This document shows positions 11,236 to 57,928 of a DNA stretch of 64,000 bases, one piece after another. Origin of the DNA: Sinomonas sp. R1AF57 (GTDB taxonomy: Bacteria; Actinomycetota; Actinomycetes; Actinomycetales; Micrococcaceae); assembly GCF_002224485.1 (NCBI RefSeq), contig NZ_CP022463.1:2110239-2174238 (forward strand), written 5' to 3'. The notes under the pieces are model-generated. The model was not told where the DNA came from. It was given only the letters and a program-made list of their open reading frames with translations, and did not search any database. A program made the position numbers and the translations under genes. How positions within the stretch are numbered: the stretch's first letter is position 1; every line of letters begins with the position of its first letter.

Positions 11236-11308
11236 GCCCTCGTAGCTCAGGGGATAGAGCGTCTGCCTCCGGAGCAGAAGGCCGTAGGTTCGAATCCTAT
11301 CGAGGGCA
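11236..11308 (+). tRNA. tRNA-Arg (anticodon CCG)
   Basis: Complete cloverleaf: acceptor arms GCCCTCG and CGAGGGC pair fully, D arm GCTC/GAGC, anticodon stem TCTGC/GCAGA with loop CTCCGGA giving anticodon CCG at 11269-11271, T arm with TTCGAAT, and discriminator A at 11308. It reads CGG codons, which are frequent in this window. The following bases are CC, so the full CCA is not encoded. Confidence 0.97.
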
Positions 11309-11387: not shown

Positions 11388-14300
11388 ATGGCGCTCACGA
11401 TCACCTATCCCGAAGCCCTCCCTGTCTCCGAGCGGCGCGACGACATCATGGAGGCCATCGCCGCGCACCAGGTCACGGTGATCGCCGGGGAGACGGGCTC
11501 TGGCAAGACGACGCAGATCCCCAAGATGTGCCTTGAGCTCGGCCTGGGCGAGAAGGGCCTCATCGGCCACACGCAGCCCCGCCGCCTCGCCGCCCGCACG
11601 GTGGCCGAGCGCATTGCCGAGGAGCTCGACGTCGAGCTGGGCCAGGAGGTCGGCTTCCAGGTGCGGTTCACCGGAGAGGTCGGACCGCAGACCAGGGTCA
11701 AGCTCATGACCGACGGCATCCTGCTCGCCGAGATCCAGCGGGACCGCCTGCTGAAGAAGTACTCGGCGATCATCATCGACGAGGCCCACGAGCGCAGCCT
11801 CAACATCGACTTCATCCTCGGCTACCTCAGGCGGATCCTCCCCCAGCGCCCGGACCTCAAGGTCATCATCACCTCGGCAACGATCGATCCCGAGCGGTTC
11901 GCGCGCCACTTCGCGGCTCCGTCGCCGGAGGCGGGGGAAGAGCAGGTTCCCGCGCCCATCATCGAGGTGTCGGGGCGCACCTATCCGGTCGAGGTCCGGT
12001 ACCGGCCGCTCACGTCCGCCCCCGGAGAGGCGGGCGACGGCGGGGAGGAGGACGACGCCGTCGCGCGCTCGGACGACGCGCTCGAGGAGGACCGCGACCC
12101 CGTCGACGCCGTGTGCGACGCCGTCGACGAGCTCTCCCGCGAGGCCCCCGGCGACATCCTCATCTTCTTCTCCGGCGAGCGCGAGATCCGCGATGCGGCG
12201 GACGCCCTCGCGGGCTCGACCCAGAAGAACCCGCGCATGGCGAACGCGGAGATCCTGCCGCTGTTCGCACGGCTCTCGCTCGCCGAGCAGCACCGGGTGT
12301 TCACCCCGGGCGGCCGGCGGCGGATCGTCCTGGCCACCAACGTGGCCGAGACGTCGCTCACCGTCCCGGGGATCAAGTACGTCATCGACACGGGCACGGC
12401 GCGCATCTCGCGCTACTCGCACCGCACGAAGGTCCAGCGGCTGCCGATCGAACGTGTCTCCCAGGCCTCCGCGAACCAGCGGGCCGGCCGCTGCGGGCGC
12501 GTCTCGGACGGCATCTGCATCCGCCTCTACTCCGAGGAGGACTACCTCTCGCGCCCGGAGTTCACCGACCCCGAGATCCTTCGCACGAACCTCGCCGCCG
12601 TCATCCTGCAGATGACTGCGATGGGGATCGCGCGCGGCCCGAAGGACGTCGAGGCGTTCCCGTTCGTCGAGCCGCCCGAGTCCCGCGCGATCAACGACGG
12701 CGTGACCCTGCTGCGCGAACTCGGCGCCCTCGCCGAGCCGGGAAGTGCGAAGGAGACGAAGAGCGCCGAGGCCACTCGTGGCACGAGGGGCGCGAAGGGC
12801 GGCCTCACCGCCGTCGGGCACCAGCTCGCCCAGCTCCCGGTCGACCCCCGGCTGGGGCGCATGATCGTCGAGGCGGCCAGGCGCGACTGCGCGCGCGAGG
12901 TCATGGTGCTCGCAGCCGCCCTGACCATCCAGGACCCCCGCGAGCGGCCCTCGCAGGAGACGGGCAAGCGGCAGGCCGCGGACGAGAAGCATGCGCGCTT
13001 CAAGGACGAGAACTCCGACTTCACGGGCTACCTCAACCTCTGGAACTACCTGCAGGAGCAGCAGCGCGAGCTGTCCTCCTCGGCGTTCCGGCGCCTGTGC
13101 AAGGCCGAATTCATCAACTTCCTGCGGGTGCGCGAGTGGCAGGAGCTGTACGCGCAGCTGCGCCAGCTGGCCCGCCCTCTGGGCATCTCCCCCGGCCAGG
13201 GCCGCGCGACGGACACCCGGCTGGAAGCAGCAGTGAAGCACGACGCCGTGCACCAGTCCCTCCTCGCGGGCCTGCTGAGCCACATCGGGCTCCTCGACGA
13301 GCGCAAGCGAGAGTACGTCGGCGCCCGCGGGACGCGCTTCGCTGTCTTCCCCGGTTCGGCGCTGTTCAAGAAGAACCCGACCTACGTCATGGCGGCCGAG
13401 CTCGTGGAGACCAGCCGCCTCTGGGCCCGCACCGCCGCGAAGATGGACCCCGCGTGGGGCGAGCTCGTGGCGCCGCACCTGGTCAAGCGCTCCTACTCCG
13501 AGCCGCACTGGTCCAAGCGGGCCGGCTCCGTCATGGCGTACGAGAAGGTCACGCTCTACGGCGTGACCCTCGTGGCGCAGCGGCGCGTCAACTACGCGCG
13601 GATCGACCCGGCGCTCGCCCGGGAGCTGTTCATCCGGCACGCGCTCGTGGAGGGCGACTGGCACACGCGCCACCACTTCTTCAAGCGGAACCGCGCCCTC
13701 CTCGACGAGGTCGAGGAGCTCGAGACCCGGATGCGGCGGCACGACCTGCGCGTGGACGACGAGGCGCTCTTCGACTTCTACGACCGCCGGCTCCCCGAGG
13801 GAATCGTCTCCGAGCGGCATTTCGACGCCTGGTGGAAGAAGGCCAGGCACGAGGACCCGGACCTCCTCGACTTCGACCGCGATCTCCTGCTGCGCGAGGA
13901 GGCCGCCGCCGGGGACGACGCCGCGTACCCCACCGTCTGGCGCCAGGGAGGCTTCGACCTTCCGCTCTCCTACGAGTTCCACCCCGTGGCACCCGGCGGC
14001 ACGCCGGACCCGAACGACGGGGTGACCGCGGAGGTCCCGGTGCTGTTCCTCAACCAGCTCGATCCCGAGCCGTTCCGGTGGCAGATCCCGGGCCAGCGGG
14101 TCGACCTCGTGACGGCGCTCATCAAGTCCCTGCCCAAGCAGGTCCGGAAGAACTTCGTGCCCGCCCCCGACGTCGCGCGCCGGGCCGTTGCCGCCCTCGA
14201 GGCGGACTTCGACCCCGCGCACGACCGGATCGAGGAATCCCTCGAGCTCGTGCTGCGCCGGCTCAAGGGCCAGATCGTGCCCCCGGGCTCGTGGAACTGG

Positions 14301-15530
14301 GACGCCGTGCCGCCGCATCTGAAGTTCTCCTTCAGCGTCGTCGACCCGCGGGGGAAGGTCCTCGGCTCAGGCAAGGACCTCGTGGCCCTGCAGGAGCAGC
14401 TCGCCCCCGCCACGCGCCGCGCCATCGCGGAGTCCCTCGGTGCGACCCCGGGCAGCACCGCCCCGCCGAAGTCACCCCGTGTGGACCCGAAGTCACCTCG
14501 TGTGGACGCGAGGTCACCCCGTGTGGACCCGAAGTCACCCCGTGCCGAGAAGACCTCGCCCAACGGACGCACGACGGCGCGCCCCGCCGAAGGCGGCGGA
14601 GTCACGGCCCGCGGCGGACTGGCAGAGCGCGGCGGACTGGCCGAGCGCAGCGGACTGACAGAGTGGAGCGTGGGGACCATCCCGCGGACGGCGAGCACCG
14701 TCGTCGCCGGCCACACCGTCACGGGCTACCCGGCCCTGACCGACGAGGGCAGCACCAAGGCCTCGCCGAGGGGCACTGCGGGCCTGCGCGTATTCCAAAG
14801 CGAGGAGGACCAGCTGCGTGCCCACCGGGCCGGGGTGATCCGCCTCCTGGCCCTGCGCATCCCGTCGCCGGACCGCTACGTGCTCGAGCACCTGAACAAC
14901 CGCGAGAAGCTCACGTTCAGCCAGAACCCGCACGGATCGGTCGCGGGGCTGATCTCCGACTGCGCGATCGCGGCGATCGACCGGCTCGTCCCCGCCGCAC
15001 TGCCGTGGGACCGCGCCGCCTTCGACGCCCTCTACGACGAGGTCCGTGCCGAGCTGATCGACACGGTCTTCAAGGTGACCGCCATCGTCGAGCAGGTCCT
15101 CGCCTCCTCGATGCGGATCAGCAAGCAGCTCAAAGGCTCCACGAGCCTGGCCCTGATCAGCGCACTGAACGATGTCAAGGCCCAGCTCGAGCAGCTCGTC
15201 TACCCCGGCTTCGTCGCCCGCACCGGGTACGCGCAGCTGATGCACCTGCCCCGCTACCTGCGCGCGATCGAGCGCCGCCTCGAGAAGCTCCCCGCCAACG
15301 TCCAGCGCGACGCCGTCGCGATGGCCACGGTCCAGGCCCTCGAGGACGACTACGACGACGCCGCCGCGGCCCTCGCCCCCACGGGACGCAACGAGGCCAA
15401 GCTCGAGAAGGTCCGCTGGATGATCGAGGAGCTGCGGGTGAGCCTGTTCGCCGTCGAACTCGGCACCGCGGGGAAGGTGTCCGAGAAGCGCGTCCGCCAG
15501 ACGCTGAACGAGGCGCTCGCCCCGGCGTAG
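11388..15530 (+). CDS. hrpA: ATP-dependent RNA helicase HrpA
   Basis: DEAH-box helicase of 1380 residues, the usual giant size of HrpA, involved in RNA remodelling (in E. coli linked to mRNA processing and stalled-ribosome rescue). The P-loop GETGSGKT (Lys about 40), DEAH (about 131) and the helicase C domain with QRAGRCGR are seen, then HA2 and OB-fold regions and a long DUF3418-type C-terminal part. Around residues 1028-1054 a linker carries a 7-residue repeat, KSPRVDP, in three and a half copies; it is encoded by the 21-bp tandem repeat described separately. The Ala/Arg-rich segment after it looks unstructured. Start chosen from the leaderless -10 spacing. Confidence 0.95.
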   Translation: MALTITYPEALPVSERRDDIMEAIAAHQVTVIAGETGSGKTTQIPKMCLELGLGEKGLIGHTQPRRLAARTVAERIAEELDVELGQEVGFQVRFTGEVGPQTRVKLMTDGILLAEIQRDRLLKKYSAIIIDEAHERSLNIDFILGYLRRILPQRPDLKVIITSATIDPERFARHFAAPSPEAGEEQVPAPIIEVSGRTYPVEVRYRPLTSAPGEAGDGGEEDDAVARSDDALEEDRDPVDAVCDAVDELSREAPGDILIFFSGEREIRDAADALAGSTQKNPRMANAEILPLFARLSLAEQHRVFTPGGRRRIVLATNVAETSLTVPGIKYVIDTGTARISRYSHRTKVQRLPIERVSQASANQRAGRCGRVSDGICIRLYSEEDYLSRPEFTDPEILRTNLAAVILQMTAMGIARGPKDVEAFPFVEPPESRAINDGVTLLRELGALAEPGSAKETKSAEATRGTRGAKGGLTAVGHQLAQLPVDPRLGRMIVEAARRDCAREVMVLAAALTIQDPRERPSQETGKRQAADEKHARFKDENSDFTGYLNLWNYLQEQQRELSSSAFRRLCKAEFINFLRVREWQELYAQLRQLARPLGISPGQGRATDTRLEAAVKHDAVHQSLLAGLLSHIGLLDERKREYVGARGTRFAVFPGSALFKKNPTYVMAAELVETSRLWARTAAKMDPAWGELVAPHLVKRSYSEPHWSKRAGSVMAYEKVTLYGVTLVAQRRVNYARIDPALARELFIRHALVEGDWHTRHHFFKRNRALLDEVEELETRMRRHDLRVDDEALFDFYDRRLPEGIVSERHFDAWWKKARHEDPDLLDFDRDLLLREEAAAGDDAAYPTVWRQGGFDLPLSYEFHPVAPGGTPDPNDGVTAEVPVLFLNQLDPEPFRWQIPGQRVDLVTALIKSLPKQVRKNFVPAPDVARRAVAALEADFDPAHDRIEESLELVLRRLKGQIVPPGSWNWDAVPPHLKFSFSVVDPRGKVLGSGKDLVALQEQLAPATRRAIAESLGATPGSTAPPKSPRVDPKSPRVDARSPRVDPKSPRAEKTSPNGRTTARPAEGGGVTARGGLAERGGLAERSGLTEWSVGTIPRTASTVVAGHTVTGYPALTDEGSTKASPRGTAGLRVFQSEEDQLRAHRAGVIRLLALRIPSPDRYVLEHLNNREKLTFSQNPHGSVAGLISDCAIAAIDRLVPAALPWDRAAFDALYDEVRAELIDTVFKVTAIVEQVLASSMRISKQLKGSTSLALISALNDVKAQLEQLVYPGFVARTGYAQLMHLPRYLRAIERRLEKLPANVQRDAVAMATVQALEDDYDDAAAALAPTGRNEAKLEKVRWMIEELRVSLFAVELGTAGKVSEKRVRQTLNEALAPA
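14468..14551 (+). repeat. 21-bp tandem repeat inside hrpA (array 1)
   Basis: Three full 21-base units start at 14468, 14489 and 14510, with a fourth partial unit from 14531. The unit core is GTCACCCCGTGTGGACCC. Because 21 is a multiple of three the reading frame is kept and gives the heptad KSPRVDP. The same unit, in the same orientation, occurs at 56579-56700. Confidence 0.93.
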
Positions 15531-25085: not shown

Positions 25086-28000
25086 GTGCCAGAACTGCCA
25101 ACCCACCGCCTGCCCGAGGAATTCGGCGGCAATGAGTGGCTTGTGGACGAGCTCTACGAGCAGTACCAGCAGAACAAGAACTCCGTGGACTCCAAGTGGT
25201 GGCCGTTGTTCGAGTCATTCGACTCGGACAGCGGCCACACGTCGAACGGCACGGCGAAGGCGCCCGCGGCCGACACGCTGACGCGGCAGATCCCCACGGT
25301 CAAGGCTCCCAACGCTTCGCCTGCGCCCGCCGCCGCCGCGGCTGCGCCCGCCAAGCCGGCGGCACCGGCCGCCGCCCCTGCTGCCGCTCCCGCCAAGCCT
25401 GCGGCACCGGCCGCCGCCCAGGCTGGCGCCTCCGCTCAGGCTGCTGCCCCGGCGCCGTCGGACGCCGCGCCGAAGAAGGGCGCTGCCGCCGTCGTGCGCG
25501 ACGGTGCCCGGCCCTCCACGACGGGGCTGATCCCCGCCCAGCTGCCGAAGACGGCCAAGGACGAGACGATCGAGGACGACATCGTCTCGCCGCTGCGCGG
25601 TCCGGCCAAGGCCATCGCGTCGAACATGATCACGAGCCTCGAGGTGCCCACCGCCACGACCGTGCGCGCGGTGCCCGCGAAGCTCCTCATGGACCAGCGC
25701 ATCGTGATCAACAACCACCTGACGCGCGTCCGCGGCGGCAAGGTCTCCTTCACGCACCTCATCGGCTTCGCCGTGATCCGCGCGCTCAAGCTCATGCCGT
25801 CCATGAACGTCTCCTACGACGAGGTCGACGGCAAGCCCGTCGCCATCCAGCACGCGCACGTCAACTTCGGCATCGCCATCGACCTGCCGAGGCCGGACGG
25901 CTCACGCCTCCTCGTGGTCCCGAACATCAAGAAGGCCGAGACCCTCAACTTCTCGGACTTCTGGCACACGTATGAGGACCTCGTCAAGCGCTCGCGCGCG
26001 GGCAAGCTCACGGCCGACGACTACGCCGGCACCACGGTCTCCCTGACCAACCCCGGCGGCATCGGCACCGTCCACTCCGTGCCGCGCCTCTCGAAGGGCC
26101 AGGCCGCCATCATCGGCGTCGGTGCGCTCGAGTACCCGGCCGAGTTCCAGGGCAGCTCCGAGAAGATCCTGGCCCTCCAGGCCGTCGGCAAGATCATCAC
26201 GCTGACCTCGACCTACGACCACCGCGTGATCCAGGGCGCGGGCTCGGGCGAGTTCCTCCGCCTCGTGCACCAGCTCCTCCTCGGGGAGCAGGGCTTCTAC
26301 GACGAGATCTTCGAGTCGCTGCGCATCCCCTACGAGCCGGTGCGCTGGAGCCCGGACCTCCAGGTCAACCCCGAGGACGCCATCAACAAGGTGGCGCGCA
26401 TCCAGCAGCTCATCCACGCGTTCCGCGTGCGCGGCCACCTCATGGCGGACACGAACCCGCTCGAGTACGTCCAGCGCCGGCATCCGGACCTCGACGTGCT
26501 CACCTACGGCCTGACCCTGTGGGACCTCGACCGCGAGTGGCCCACCGGCGGGTTCGGCGGCCGCCCGAAGATGAAGTTCCGCGACATCCTCGGCGTGCTG
26601 CGCGACGCCTACTGCCGCACCACCGGCATCGAGTACATGCACCTCCAGGAGCCCGCCGAGCGCAAGTGGTTCCAGGACGAGCTCGAGCACCCGTACAAGA
26701 AGCCGAGCCGCGAGGAGCAGCTGCGCATCGTCTCCCGCCTGAACGCGGCCGAGGCGTTCGAGACGTTCCTGCAGACCAAGTTCGTCGGCCAGAAGCGCTT
26801 CTCCCTGGAGGGCGGCGAGTCGCTCATCCCGCTCCTGGACGCGACCCTGTCCGAGGCCGCCGAGGACGGGCTCGACGAGGTCGGCATCGGCATGGCCCAC
26901 CGTGGCCGCCTCAACGTGCTGACCAACATCGCCGGCAAGACCTATGCACAGGTGTTCCGCGAGTTCGAGGGCACGCAGGATCCGAAGAGCGTCCAGGGCT
27001 CCGGCGACGTCAAGTACCACCTCGGCACCGAGGGAACGTTCACCGCGGAGAACGGCAAGCAGACCAAGGTCTACCTCGCCGCCAACCCGTCCCACCTCGA
27101 GGCCGTCGACCCGGTCCTCGAAGGCATCGTCCGCGCCAAGCAGGACCGGCTCGACAAGGGCGAGGCGTTCCCCGTCCTGCCGATCCTCGTCCACGGCGAC
27201 GCGGCGTTCGCCGGCCAGGGCGTCGTGGCAGAGACCCTCAACCTCTCGCAGCTGCGCGGCTACCGCACCGGCGGCACGATCCACATCATCGTGAACAACC
27301 AGGTCGGCTTCACGACCTCCCCGTCCGCGTCGCGCTCCTCGGTGTACTCGACCGACGTCGCGAAGATGGTCCAGGCGCCGATCTTCCACGTCAACGGCGA
27401 CGATCCCGAGGCCGTGGTCCGCGTCGCCCAGATGGCGTACCGGTTCCGCCAGCGGTTCCACAAGGATGTCGTGATCGACCTCGTGTGCTACCGCCGCCGT
27501 GGGCACAACGAGGGCGACGACCCGTCGATGACCCAGCCGCTCATGTACAACCTCATCGAGGCGAAGCGCTCGGTCCGCAAGCTCTACACCGAGAGCCTGA
27601 TCGGCCGCGGCGACATCACGCAGGAAGAGGCGGAGCAGCTCCTGCGCGACTACCAGGAGCGCCTCGAGCGCGTCTTCGCGGAGACCCACGCCGCGCAGAC
27701 CTCGCCGATCCCGGTCATCACCGGCGACGCGAAGGCCGTCTCGGACCTCGAGCGCCCCCTCGCCCAGCAGCAGGAGGACACCGAGGTCCGTGCCCCGCGC
27801 CAGACGGCGATCAGCCGCGAGATGCTCGCCGCGATCGGCCAGGCGCACGTCCAGGTTCCCGAGGGCTTCACGGTGCACGCCAAGCTCCGCCAGCTCCTCG
27901 AGCGCCGCGAGCAGATGTCCCGCGACGGCGGGATCGACTGGGGCTTCGGCGAGATCGCGGCCTTCGGCTCGCTCACGGCAGAGGGCGTGCCCGTGCGCCT

Positions 28001-36824: not shown

Positions 36825-36945
36825 CAGGTCACGAGTGCCAGCGATAAACCCCGGTTTGCTGGCCGGCAACCCTCCCACCGCGGCGGGGTGCCCCGGGTGA
36901 CGACCAGGCCGGTCCGGAGCGGACCCGGCAAGCGCGGACCCGCCA
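36825..36945 (+). promoter_or_regulatory. SAM-IV riboswitch
   Basis: The run AGTGCCAGCGATAAACCCCG and the later core GGCCGGCAACCCTCC, GGGGTGCCCCGGGTGACGACC match the SAM-IV aptamer known from actinobacteria: P1 closes with GGTCAC and GTGACGACC. Binding of S-adenosylmethionine would be expected to switch off the downstream gene, probably by hiding the ribosome site at 36964-36968, as there is no obvious terminator. Exact 3' end estimated. Confidence 0.9.
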
Positions 36946-42874: not shown

Positions 42875-42882
42875 CGACAGAG

Positions 42883-43248
42883 TGGAGATGGGGGGAATTG
42901 AACCCCCGTCCGGTGCGGTTTTGCCAGGTATTCTCCGGGCGCAGTGTGCGTCGGGCTTTCTCGGCCCCAGCCATCAAGCACACCAGTGGCTGACCCGGGC
43001 CCAGTCGTCTGAATGTCCCAGCAGCCCCGACGACGAGGGCTGCCAGCAGTGGCTATCTAATCGACGCCAGGATCCGGGGCGATAGCAATCCCGGGCTGAC
43101 GGACTTGCTCGCTACTTAGGCAGCGAGAGCGAAGTCAGTGCGCTTAGACTTGGCACTTATTGTTTTGCAGAGAGCGTTGACGAGATGACTCTGCATCCTC
43201 GGCCCGCTTCCCCTGTCTCGACCTACACCGTCGAAACCGATCATCCCC
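42883..43248 (-). ncRNA. ssrA: Transfer-messenger RNA (tmRNA)
   Basis: Rescues stalled ribosomes with SmpB. The 5' GGGGATG pairs with the 3' CATCTCC, followed by A at 42883; the T arm GGGGTTCAATTCCCC is complete. The tag-coding frame (complement 43116-43154) gives resume codon GCC and the tag AKSKRTDFALAA, ending TAA. The CCA end is not encoded. Two bases of the 5' arm make a G-U pair. A terminator follows and smpB is 1.5 kb away on the same strand. Confidence 0.96.
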
Positions 43249-55263: not shown

Positions 55264-56460
55264 CTAGCTCTTCTTCTCGGCCGGGGCGACCTGGTCCGCA
55301 GGGACCGTCTTGACGAGTTCGGGCGTCCAGGCGCCGTCCTTCTGGACGAGCTTGGCCTGGTACATAGGCTGCATCAGGACGTGGTCCGAGGCGCGGACGC
55401 TCTCCTTGCCCTTGGGACCGTCGAACTCGTAGCCCTCGAGCCCCTTGACCATGTCGTCCACCGACGCACCGGACTTGACGGCCTGGACGATCATCTGCCC
55501 TGCGACGAACCCGTCCGGGGTGAAGAGGTCCACCTTCTTGCCTGCGGCCTCGACGTCCTTGACCATCTCCTGCTCGACAGCATTGTTGCCGCCCGCGCCC
55601 TTGAAGTAGTGGCTGAGGAAGCTGATCTTGCTGCTCGCGGCACCGTAGGCGGAGTAGGTCGAGGTGTCGCCGAGGCCGGTGACGACGGGCGCGGCGTCGA
55701 AGACGCCCTGCTGGGTGAGCGCCTGCCACATCGCGCCGCTCGTGGCGCCGGCCCAGGCGACAAAGGTCATCGCGGGCTTGGCGTCGATGATCTGGCGCGC
55801 GAACGGCGTGAACTCGGTGGCATCCTCGGGAACGAGGACCTGCTCCACCGTGGCGCCCTTGGCGCCGAGCACGGCCTTGACCGCTGCGACGTTGCCCTGG
55901 CCGAAGGCATTGTTCTGCGCGAAGACCAGGACCTTCTTGCCCTGGAGGCTCTCCACGAAGGTACCGGCCGTCGCGACGTCCTGGAGCGACTGGCGGCCCG
56001 AGCGGAAGGTGTACTTGTTGATGCCCTGGAGCGCGTCCGTCGCGGCGGGGCCGGAGATGTAGAGGACCTTGTTCTGCGCGGCCTGCTCGGCGAGCTTGAG
56101 CGCGACGCCCGAGACCACGGTGCCCGCGAGGATCTTGTAGTCCTTGCCGATGAGGTCCTTGGCCAGCGCCACGGCCTTGTCCGGGTCACCCGCGTCGTCC
56201 TGGTAGGTCAGGTTCAGGGTGGCGTTGCCGACCTTGCCGGTCCCGCCGGTTGCGTACTTGATCCCGGCCTGGAGGCCCTCGTAGTAGGCCTCGCCGTAGG
56301 CAGCGAGGGGTCCGGTCTTCGAGTAGACGATGCCCACGTTGACCGTCCGGGCCGCATCGGAGGAGCCGCCCGAGGCGCTGGACGAGCTGGGCGCGCATCC
56401 GGTCGCGGCGAGGCCGGCGGCGAGGGTGGCCGCAAGGAGGAACTTCTTTGTTGCCTTCAC
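55264..56460 (-). CDS. livK: ABC transporter substrate-binding lipoprotein
   Basis: Periplasmic-binding-type lipoprotein of 398 residues, Leu/Ile/Val-binding family. The signal peptide ends in the lipobox LAATGC; the mature protein has the bilobed fold with GPLAAYGEAYYEGLQAGI and GTVVSGVALKLAEQA. The ligand may be a branched-chain amino acid, an amide or an organic acid; the neighbouring acyl-CoA ligase favours an acid. GTG start with GAAAGG seven bases upstream. First gene of the operon. Confidence 0.9.
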   Translation of the reverse strand: MKATKKFLLAATLAAGLAATGCAPSSSSASGGSSDAARTVNVGIVYSKTGPLAAYGEAYYEGLQAGIKYATGGTGKVGNATLNLTYQDDAGDPDKAVALAKDLIGKDYKILAGTVVSGVALKLAEQAAQNKVLYISGPAATDALQGINKYTFRSGRQSLQDVATAGTFVESLQGKKVLVFAQNNAFGQGNVAAVKAVLGAKGATVEQVLVPEDATEFTPFARQIIDAKPAMTFVAWAGATSGAMWQALTQQGVFDAAPVVTGLGDTSTYSAYGAASSKISFLSHYFKGAGGNNAVEQEMVKDVEAAGKKVDLFTPDGFVAGQMIVQAVKSGASVDDMVKGLEGYEFDGPKGKESVRASDHVLMQPMYQAKLVQKDGAWTPELVKTVPADQVAPAEKKS

Positions 56461-56535: not shown

Positions 56536-56578
56536 ACGACGCCGCCGCGCTGCCGTCAAGGCTCCGCCACCCTCCGCC

Positions 56579-56700
56579 GAGGTCACCCCGTGTGGGCCCG
56601 AGGTCACCCCGTGTGGGCCCGAGGTCACTCCCTGTGGGCCCGACGTCACCCCGTGTGGGCCCGAGGTCACCCCTTGTGGGCCCGAGGTCACCCCTTGCAC
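56579..56700 (+). repeat. 21-bp tandem repeat between livK and prfB (array 2)
   Basis: Five full 21-base units (56579, 56600, 56621, 56642, 56663) and a partial sixth from 56684. Unit: GAGGTCACCCCGTGTGGG plus CCC. Copies differ by one or two bases. Both this array and the one in hrpA share the left flank CCGCCGA before the first unit. It contains the near-palindromes GGTCACC and GGGCCC. Confidence 0.95.
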
Positions 56701-56748
56701 TCCGTGTCCACCGCCGAAACCGCGACGCACTGTGCCACAAAGGACGCA

Positions 56749-56797: not shown

Positions 56798-57919
56798 TCA
56801 GCTTTCGGCAGCGCCCTGGCGCTGACCGGCACGCCAGCGGATCCCGGCGTCGATGAAACCGTCGATGTCGCCGTCGAGCACCGCCGCCGTGTTTCCAACC
56901 TCGTGTTCCGTCCGCAAGTCCTTGACCATCTGGTAAGGGTTCAGGACGTATGACCGCATCTGATCGCCCCACGATGCCTTGACGTCGCCTGCGAGGGCCT
57001 TCTTCTGTGCGTCTTCCTGCTCCTTCTTCAGCAGGAGGAGGCGGGACTGGAGGACGCGCAGCGCAGCGGCGCGGTTCTGGATCTGCGACTTCTCGTTCTG
57101 CATCGACACGACGATGCCCGTCGGGATGTGCGTCAGGCGGACGGCGGAGTCAGTCGTGTTGACGGACTGGCCACCGGGGCCCGAGGAGCGGAAGACATCC
57201 ACGCGGATCTCGTTGTCCGGGATCTCGATGTGGTCCGTCTGCTCGATGAGCGGAATCACCTCGACCGCTGCGAAGGACGTCTGGCGGCGGCCCTGGTTGT
57301 CGAACGGGCTGATGCGAACCAACCGGTGCGTGCCTGCCTCGACGGAGAGCGTGCCGTAGGCGAACGGCGCATTGACCTCGAAGGTCGCCGACTTGAGGCC
57401 GGCCTCCTCCGCGTACGAGGTATCCATGACCTTCGTCGGGTAGCCGCGGCGTTCGGCCCAGCGGAGGTACATGCGCATGAGCATCTCGGCGAAGTCTGCG
57501 GCATCGACGCCACCAGCCCCCGCGCGGATCGTCACCACGGCATCCCGCTCGTCGTAGTCGCCGTTCAAGAGCGTCACGACCTCGAGTTCTTCAAGAGCCT
57601 TCCTGATCGAGCCGAGTTCCCTGCCGGCCTCTGCGAGCGAGTCTGGATCGCCCTCCTCTTGGGCAAGCTCGACGAGCACCTCAAGGTCGTCGATGCGCTC
57701 TCCGAGCTTCTCGACACGCTCGAGCTCCGACTGACGGTGAGACAGCCGAGAGGTCACCTGCTGGGCCTTCGACGGGTCGTCCCAGAGGTCCGGGGCCCCA
57801 GCCGCCTCGCTTAGCTCCGCGATCTCGGCACGCAGAGACTCGACGTCGGTCACCTGCTCAATGGAGTCGTGGGTGGCGCGAAGCGCGCGGATCTCTGCGG
57901 GGAAGTCGATCTCAGCCAT
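56798..57919 (-). CDS. prfB: Peptide chain release factor 2
   Basis: Release factor for UGA and UAA, 373 residues. It has the GGQ motif ([10 protein letters not shown], about 249-251) and the SPF anticodon motif (RISPFDN). No +1 frameshift site is present, as in other actinobacteria. I place the start at ATG 57917-57919 (MAEIDFP...), because the other ATG (57925) would leave only three bases after the -10. TAACCT (57929-57934) ends nine bases before this ATG. Confidence 0.95.
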
Positions 57920-57928
57920 AACCATCCA

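Follow-up and report, generated by a model that had tools for sequence, protein, structure and literature searches.

Head-to-head arrays of a 21-bp repeat dispersed over the chromosome of Sinomonas: a genus-specific family with species dialects and possible phased binding sites

Several described systems resemble the arrays reported here, which are built of a 21-bp unit carrying a 10-bp header. MIRU and other bacterial VNTRs are tandem intergenic units of an actinobacterium with variable copy number, and the Sinomonas arrays are like MIRU in all of these respects; MIRU units, at roughly 50-100 bp, are longer than the Sinomonas unit, and we know of no description of head-to-head pairing or header dialects for MIRU or other VNTRs. 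The foldback transposons of eukaryotes have inverted ends built of tandem subrepeats, as the paired arrays of Sinomonas do, but in Sinomonas no cargo or transposase was seen, 27 of 67 arrays are unpaired and the middle is ordinary local sequence. Elements of the REP/BIME/REPIN type are short extragenic repeats present in many copies per genome, species-specific and arranged in opposed pairs (PMC2817692, PMC3116915). The Sinomonas arrays are similar in copy number, extragenic position, species specificity and opposed pairing; however, the REP/BIME/REPIN unit is a palindrome of 20-40 bp, whereas in Sinomonas a 21-bp direct repeat is placed first in tandem and then head-to-head, and Y1 transposase is absent from 15 of 15 genomes of the genus. 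The DNA uptake sequences of Neisseriaceae consist of a 10-bp motif with species dialects, found in inverted pairs near gene ends and also within coding sequence, in thousands of copies per genome (PMC3630211). A 10-bp motif, dialects, inverted pairs at gene ends and coding copies are also features of Sinomonas, where the motifs form arrays rather than scattered singles and occupy far fewer loci (a few dozen). Lastly, the TAACTGA repeats of Beggiatoaceae, Cyanobacteria and Bacteroidetes are described as genome-wide groups of 2-6 copies, mostly intergenic and suspected to be binding sites, the heptamer lying just upstream of start codons with a patchy distribution across phyla (PMC4679880). The Sinomonas arrays are likewise genome-wide, short, direct, mostly intergenic and suspected binding sites, but their unit has 21 bp, lies behind stop codons, belongs to one genus and comes in dialects.

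The starting point was a window, that is, the whole 64-kb stretch of DNA analysed, in which two arrays with a common unit had been annotated. The features concerned are as follows:

11388..15530, plus strand: host gene hrpA, a DEAH helicase with DUF3418 (gene call; Pfam places DUF3418 at residues 711-1374)
14467..14550, plus strand: hrpA-linker array of four units, residues 1027-1054, in frame and sense to hrpA
55264..56460, minus strand: gene of a periplasmic binding protein family (Pfam match), its start facing the intergenic array
56578..56703, plus strand: array of six units (the sixth incomplete) in the intergenic DNA between two genes on the minus strand
56798..57925, minus strand: peptide chain release factor gene (Pfam PCRF and RF-1 domains), presumably prfB, its stop 94 bp from the tail of the intergenic array

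According to the initial annotation, the two arrays share unit and left flank and the first encodes KSPRVDP heptads in the hrpA frame, and our analysis bears this out. TRF reports period 21 at 14466-14544 (3.8 copies, 89% matches) and at 56577-56694 (5.6 copies, 92% matches), CCGC directly before CGA forms the left boundary of both arrays, and the last unit of both stops after CGANGTCACCCC. The hrpA array is read in frame as KSPRVDP-KSPRVDA-RSPRVDP-KSPRAEK, and by the gene calls the intergenic array at 56578-56703 is antisense to both of its neighbours. When up to 3 mismatches were allowed, the pattern GANGTCACCCCGTGTGGNCC matched 8 times in the window, compared with 0.19 matches expected (100 shuffles, largest 2).

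These two arrays belong to a family that is specific to the genus and spread over the whole chromosome, and the picture of two isolated loci drawn from the window had to be abandoned. In the whole genome GANGTCACCCCGTGTGGNCC gave 196 matches and the reversed pattern 3, and the tandem form GTCACC-N15-GTCACC gave 187 against 3 in this same genome (G000). We examined 45 stretches, namely the window and 44 fetched around pattern matches, detecting arrays by pattern and scoring units with a weight matrix. The 3.94-Mb chromosome contained, among the matches listed, at least 67 arrays, to which degenerate ones may have to be added; they comprise 280 units of 21-bp period and occur in 44 of the 45 stretches. 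The family is dispersed, keeps a head-to-head rule and a preferred placement, occupies sites shared between species, has dialects and changes its copy number fast, and no such family was seen outside the genus.

The unit consists of the 10-bp header CGANGTCACC and a variable 11-bp spacer. The exact header is present in 247 of the 280 units, a constancy that is partly by construction because header positions 5-10 belonged to the search pattern, while the positions of the spacer vary. CGA before GTCACC, which lay outside the search pattern, is still nearly constant in the first 100 pairs listed, and the spacing between units is exactly 21 bp in 210 of 213 steps. Additionally, an exact double unit was searched in a collection of named species, which may omit the window's own records; all ten stretches recovered were from Sinomonas, nine from Sinomonas sp. 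ASV486 and one from Sinomonas atrocyanea.

The arrays are placed mostly outside genes. With genes predicted by a codon-contrast caller, 48 of the 67 arrays fall between genes, and the same caller takes 89% of this DNA as coding; a Pfam family was found in 39 of the 42 upstream neighbours scanned, out of 47 listed, and in all 15 genes that host an array. The gene upstream of the array head lies on the same strand for 34 intergenic arrays and on the opposite strand for 14. Furthermore, the head is within 30 bp of a facing stop codon in 26 of the 48, compared with 7 for the tail, and if the four arrays with both ends near a stop are left out, the bias is 22 heads to 3 tails (p = 1.6e-4). Single arrays followed no trend by eye with the direction of replication, the origin being assumed at the contig start. 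Two arrays, at chromosome positions 3191601-3191684 (L085) and 3202464-3202547 (L086), each lie directly behind the stop of one gene and at the same time supply the predicted N-terminus of the gene that follows.

This bias towards a sense unit behind the stop would be expected of an RNA element of the 3' untranslated region, which binds Rho or another RNA-binding protein and so ends, processes or protects the transcript. We consider such an element improbable. Ten of the 19 intragenic arrays are antisense and the other nine would sit within coding RNA, and the intergenic array of the window is antisense to both neighbours. Sense-strand RNA has no excess of structure over shuffled sequences (mean z -0.12, against -1.84 for antisense), the unit has no palindrome on the sense strand, no pairing-type covariation supporting a hairpin appeared among the top position pairs, and Rfam matched no array in the five sources scanned. 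Rfam matches elsewhere in the window are a SAM-IV riboswitch (36827-36940, plus strand), a tmRNA (42880-43248, minus strand) and a tRNA (11236-11308, plus strand). With respect to Rho in particular, a rut site should be unstructured RNA behind a stop, C-rich and G-poor; the arrays are unstructured and lie behind stops, but have 39% C and 33% G in the GTCACC dialect and, further still from expectation, 32% C and 47% G in the TCGGG dialect described below. On balance the Rho-site reading is disfavoured.

The remaining 19 arrays lie within 15 genes whose products are, according to Pfam, HrpA, TilS-like, DnaX, TetR, MazG, MoeA, phosphopantetheinyl transferase, AidB, E2 acyltransferase, XdhC, chorismate-binding, LigD, LUD, DUF4194 and StiP proteins. 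All but two of the arrays (17/19) are outside Pfam spans, the exceptions being those of hrpA, inside DUF3418, and MoeA, and that of AidB sits between two stretches of one domain. Nine are sense and ten antisense to their gene, which indicates that the DNA header is kept and the peptide is not; the period of seven codons keeps any frame, so arrays can survive in interdomain linkers. It had been proposed that the repeat inserts charged, disordered linkers into proteins: heptad linkers do occur in all these genes, but a purpose at the protein level is not borne out. In the same way, for a coding minisatellite selected as a protein linker one would look for a conserved frame or peptide, and neither was seen among the 9 sense and 10 antisense arrays, a further 48 being non-coding by our gene calls. 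The linker heptads of HrpA, DnaX, LigD and E2 acyltransferases are a warning that such peptides may arise simply because a DNA element happens to be translated.

Neighbouring arrays obey a strong rule of orientation. With a distance limit of 2 kb, the stretches of seven Sinomonas genomes gave 44 convergent pairs of neighbours, one divergent pair and two pairs in the same direction (L097 in G003 and L173 in G007); the lone divergent case arises in L053, where one convergent pair follows another. Three further pairs in G011, found by periodicity, were all convergent (3/3). In the window's genome 40 of the 67 arrays form 20 convergent pairs with gaps of 8 to 1148 bp, and 27 have no partner; when decayed partners of these were sought, near-header matches downstream were convergent in 30 cases and in the same direction in 26, and only L074 had a clear partner. 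The single arrays include one behind the acetate kinase gene (L076), and the pairs one that lies between a thiC-type and an SRP54-type gene (L064). Between convergent genes a head-to-head arrangement would simply follow from the sense-behind-the-stop bias, but the rule is also kept by pairs within one gene (L075, L081, L085, L086) and by pairs between genes on one strand (e.g. L056, L084, L088).

Dispersal in many, mostly extragenic copies and in inverted pairs, together with the species-specific sequence of the arrays, would suit a self-copying family, that is, non-autonomous mobile DNA of REP/REPIN or foldback type whose enzyme is encoded elsewhere and whose function, if any, is secondary. 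This is the strongest rival to the binding-site reading set out below, and we regard it as rather unlikely. A RAYT-type Y1 transposase (PF01797) was found in none of the 15 Sinomonas genomes, the Y1 family being the one searched, while control genomes were positive in 5 of 14 cases. The sense strand has neither palindrome nor RNA structure. As a candidate member of the REP/RAYT class the family agreed in copy number and extragenic bias, lacked the palindrome and the Y1 transposase, and was rejected; considered as a foldback-type element, with inverted ends of tandem subrepeats, it comprises 20 convergent pairs and 27 single arrays.

Comparison with congeners bears more directly on mobility. 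Array stretches of G003 and G014 aligned with array stretches of G000 in 12 of 14 and 11 of 15 cases, respectively. We viewed 16 chosen sites side by side, and since the first pair of L053 gave no relative, 15 were compared with G003 and G014. At 12 of them one or both relatives have an array with the same header in the corresponding position (at L074 the minus partner only), at the first array of L081 the other header is present, and at two, L052 in G003 and L076 in G014, where one relative each was comparable, there is no intact array. Most of the compared array sites are therefore old and not fresh insertions. In line with the self-copying reading are the two sites lacking an intact array and the gene beside the L053 arrays, which has no 21-bp periodicity in 7 of the 10 congeners read; this last comparison is weak evidence of gain or loss, given that several of them have a different order of genes near the homologue and the G011 match is only 55% identical. 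Against it stand the 12 shared sites and the changes of header in place described below. The idea of a mobile or self-copying minisatellite is hence supported as to dispersal but not as to fresh mobility as the main story.

Copy number, on the other hand, changes fast. In stretches of G003 and G014 that align at 96.5-99.1% identity, 8 of the 10 sites common to both have unequal numbers of headers, in agreement with the expectation that unit number varies between close relatives. The initial annotation also asked whether hrpA orthologues lack the heptads, and the answer is divided: in 11 of 15 Sinomonas genomes the linker carries two or more headers in 21-bp register and its sequence is species-specific, and in the other four (G001, G005, G006, G009) it falls short of that number. 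In those four the genome-wide pair counts are also at the background level of the controls, which indicates that the family is not essential to the genus.

The header itself differs between species. Congeners sometimes carry CGANNTCGGG instead of CGANGTCACC at the same gene ends or linkers. GTCACC-type pairs are frequent in five genomes (187 against 3 in the reversed control for G000, 180/1 for G003, 165/1 for G014, 158/1 for G011 and 104/1 for G008), and the other ten of the 15 have 1 to 14, with controls of 0 to 4. The hrpA linkers of G010 and G007 led us to predict a second, TCGGG family, which a genome-wide search then revealed: CCGANNTCGGG-type pairs number 89 in G010, 39 in G007, 15 in G002 and 0 to 3 in the rest of the 15 genomes, with a control of 0 throughout, the header being nearly palindromic so that a few sites are counted on both strands. 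Of the 8 genomes in which a family is clear, 7 have the same dialect in the hrpA linker as in the genome at large (G000, G003, G014 and G008 for one dialect; G010, G007 and G002 for the other), G011 being the one disagreement. A third header form, GGTCACCTCCCAACGTTG-like, was noted in G011 in three convergent pairs (L156, L157, L158).

Arrays of the TCGGG dialect occur at array sites of G000, in the same position and orientation relative to genes, in 6 of 12 stretches of G010 (L159, L160, L162, L166, L167 and L170) and in 3 of 5 stretches of G007 (L172, L174 and L175). In L160 the gene end is the same and the other neighbour differs, and in L167 the minus array alone is at the G000 site, its plus array being elsewhere. 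The chance of such agreement is about 1e-4 (7e-5 to 2e-4) for G010 and 3e-3 to 5e-3 for G007, if 7 to 8.5% of the chromosome is taken as array stretch and the easier alignment of conserved genes is ignored. Judged from these alignments, the species dialect of the header appears to be replaced in place at old sites. At the third L081 site, L103 in G003 and L113 in G014 hold arrays in which GTCACC and TCGGG-type headers occur together, as if between dialects.

Uniform headers might also arise if nothing reads them, slippage making the arrays and gene conversion spreading one header per species. A neutral minisatellite of this kind agrees with the fast copy-number change, the similarity of spacers within an array, the location of arrays at sequence-tolerant places and the mixed headers in one array each of G003 and G014. 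However, a constant header beside a variable spacer is unexpected if whole units are converted, and the head-to-head rule (44 vs 1) and the head-at-stop bias would need another cause; we find it distinctly unlikely.

Dialects of a 10-bp motif and inverted pairs near gene ends also recall the uptake sequences of Neisseriaceae (PMC3630211), and the header could be a species tag recognised in natural transformation and spread by biased uptake. Exact headers outside arrays number 26, against 4 in the reversed-sequence control. Micrococcus luteus belongs to the same family as Sinomonas. Transformation is a subject of study in that species (PMC4322843 and other reports). Nevertheless, ACC was the ending of 25 of 1033 solitary CGANGTC sites in 335.5 kb of fetched sequence (GAG 73, CTC 66), so that it is not singled out and the excess of solitary headers looks like ordinary sequence bias, and the arrays occupy a few dozen loci compared with thousands of motifs per genome in Neisseriaceae. 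As a candidate uptake sequence the family had the species dialects, lacked the over-representation of single copies, and was rejected. The DNA-uptake reading is disfavoured and, in our judgement, very improbable.

The reading that we prefer, tentatively, is that arrays act as landing pads, with several sites each, for a trans-acting factor that is sequence-specific and most probably a DNA-binding protein. We infer the existence of this factor, its action on DNA and its role from sequence patterns. Sites of a trans-acting factor are fitted by the constant header with a free spacer, the orientation rule, the presence of both orientations in coding sequence and the replacement of dialects in place. 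Headers every 21 bp would recur at two turns of B-DNA on one helix face, so the putative factor might work on several phased sites and, where arrays are close, on two facing arrays. Unit number would change fast by slippage or unequal exchange, and arrays, whose seven-codon period keeps any frame, could persist in interdomain linkers and in the permissive DNA behind stops. The need to match the putative factor would keep the header uniform within a species, and a shift in the preference of the factor could then lead to replacement of headers in place at old sites, giving CGANGTCACC in some species, CGANNTCGGG in others and a third form in one. A constraint on the DNA header rather than on the peptide would fit phased binding sites with fast copy-number turnover.

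Some observations speak against the landing pad. Uniform headers could be the work of gene conversion between arrays, with no reader involved; the sense-behind-the-stop bias (34 vs 14; 22 vs 3) hints at a part played by transcription, for which a pure DNA pad has no need; and 27 of 67 arrays have no partner and G011 breaks the agreement between hrpA and genome dialects. An extension of the landing-pad reading, which we hold to be unlikely, is a directional chromosome code new to bacteria, in which phased arrays, placed head-to-head at the ends of genes and across segments of genes, would have as their reader a protein that evolves fast, is peculiar to the genus and joins or insulates domains of DNA, and species-wide dialect switches would rewrite arrays in place at dozens of loci. 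Such a code would be similar in logic to convergent CTCF sites, though unrelated to them by descent.

Outside Sinomonas, matches are at background level only. The strict unit was found in 0 of 23 genomes from other genera, and with a three-header pattern run over 197 genomes of the family, 11 of them Sinomonas, 12 of the 186 others had 1-3 matches, while the reversed control reached 8 in one genome; the search covers these headers, and 21-bp families with other headers would escape it. Additionally, a search of an open-access library listed no report that describes arrays of this kind, either in Sinomonas or in other Actinobacteria. Loci that keep their place and swap their core motif by species are rare material for studying either the co-change of a motif and its reader or a gene conversion that imitates it, and this array system is compact, lives in soil bacteria and is open to clear experiments.

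Other repeats of the window were also noted. The hrpA linker contains at 14610-14663 a second, unrelated repeat of three 18-bp units encoding RGGLAE/RSGLTE-like hexads, and SGLAER/SGLTEW motifs similar to these hexads occur in hrpA linkers of congeners. Lastly, an Ala/Pro-rich coding repeat of 42 bp (2 x 21), at 25321-25457, has a sequence unlike that of the 21-bp array family.
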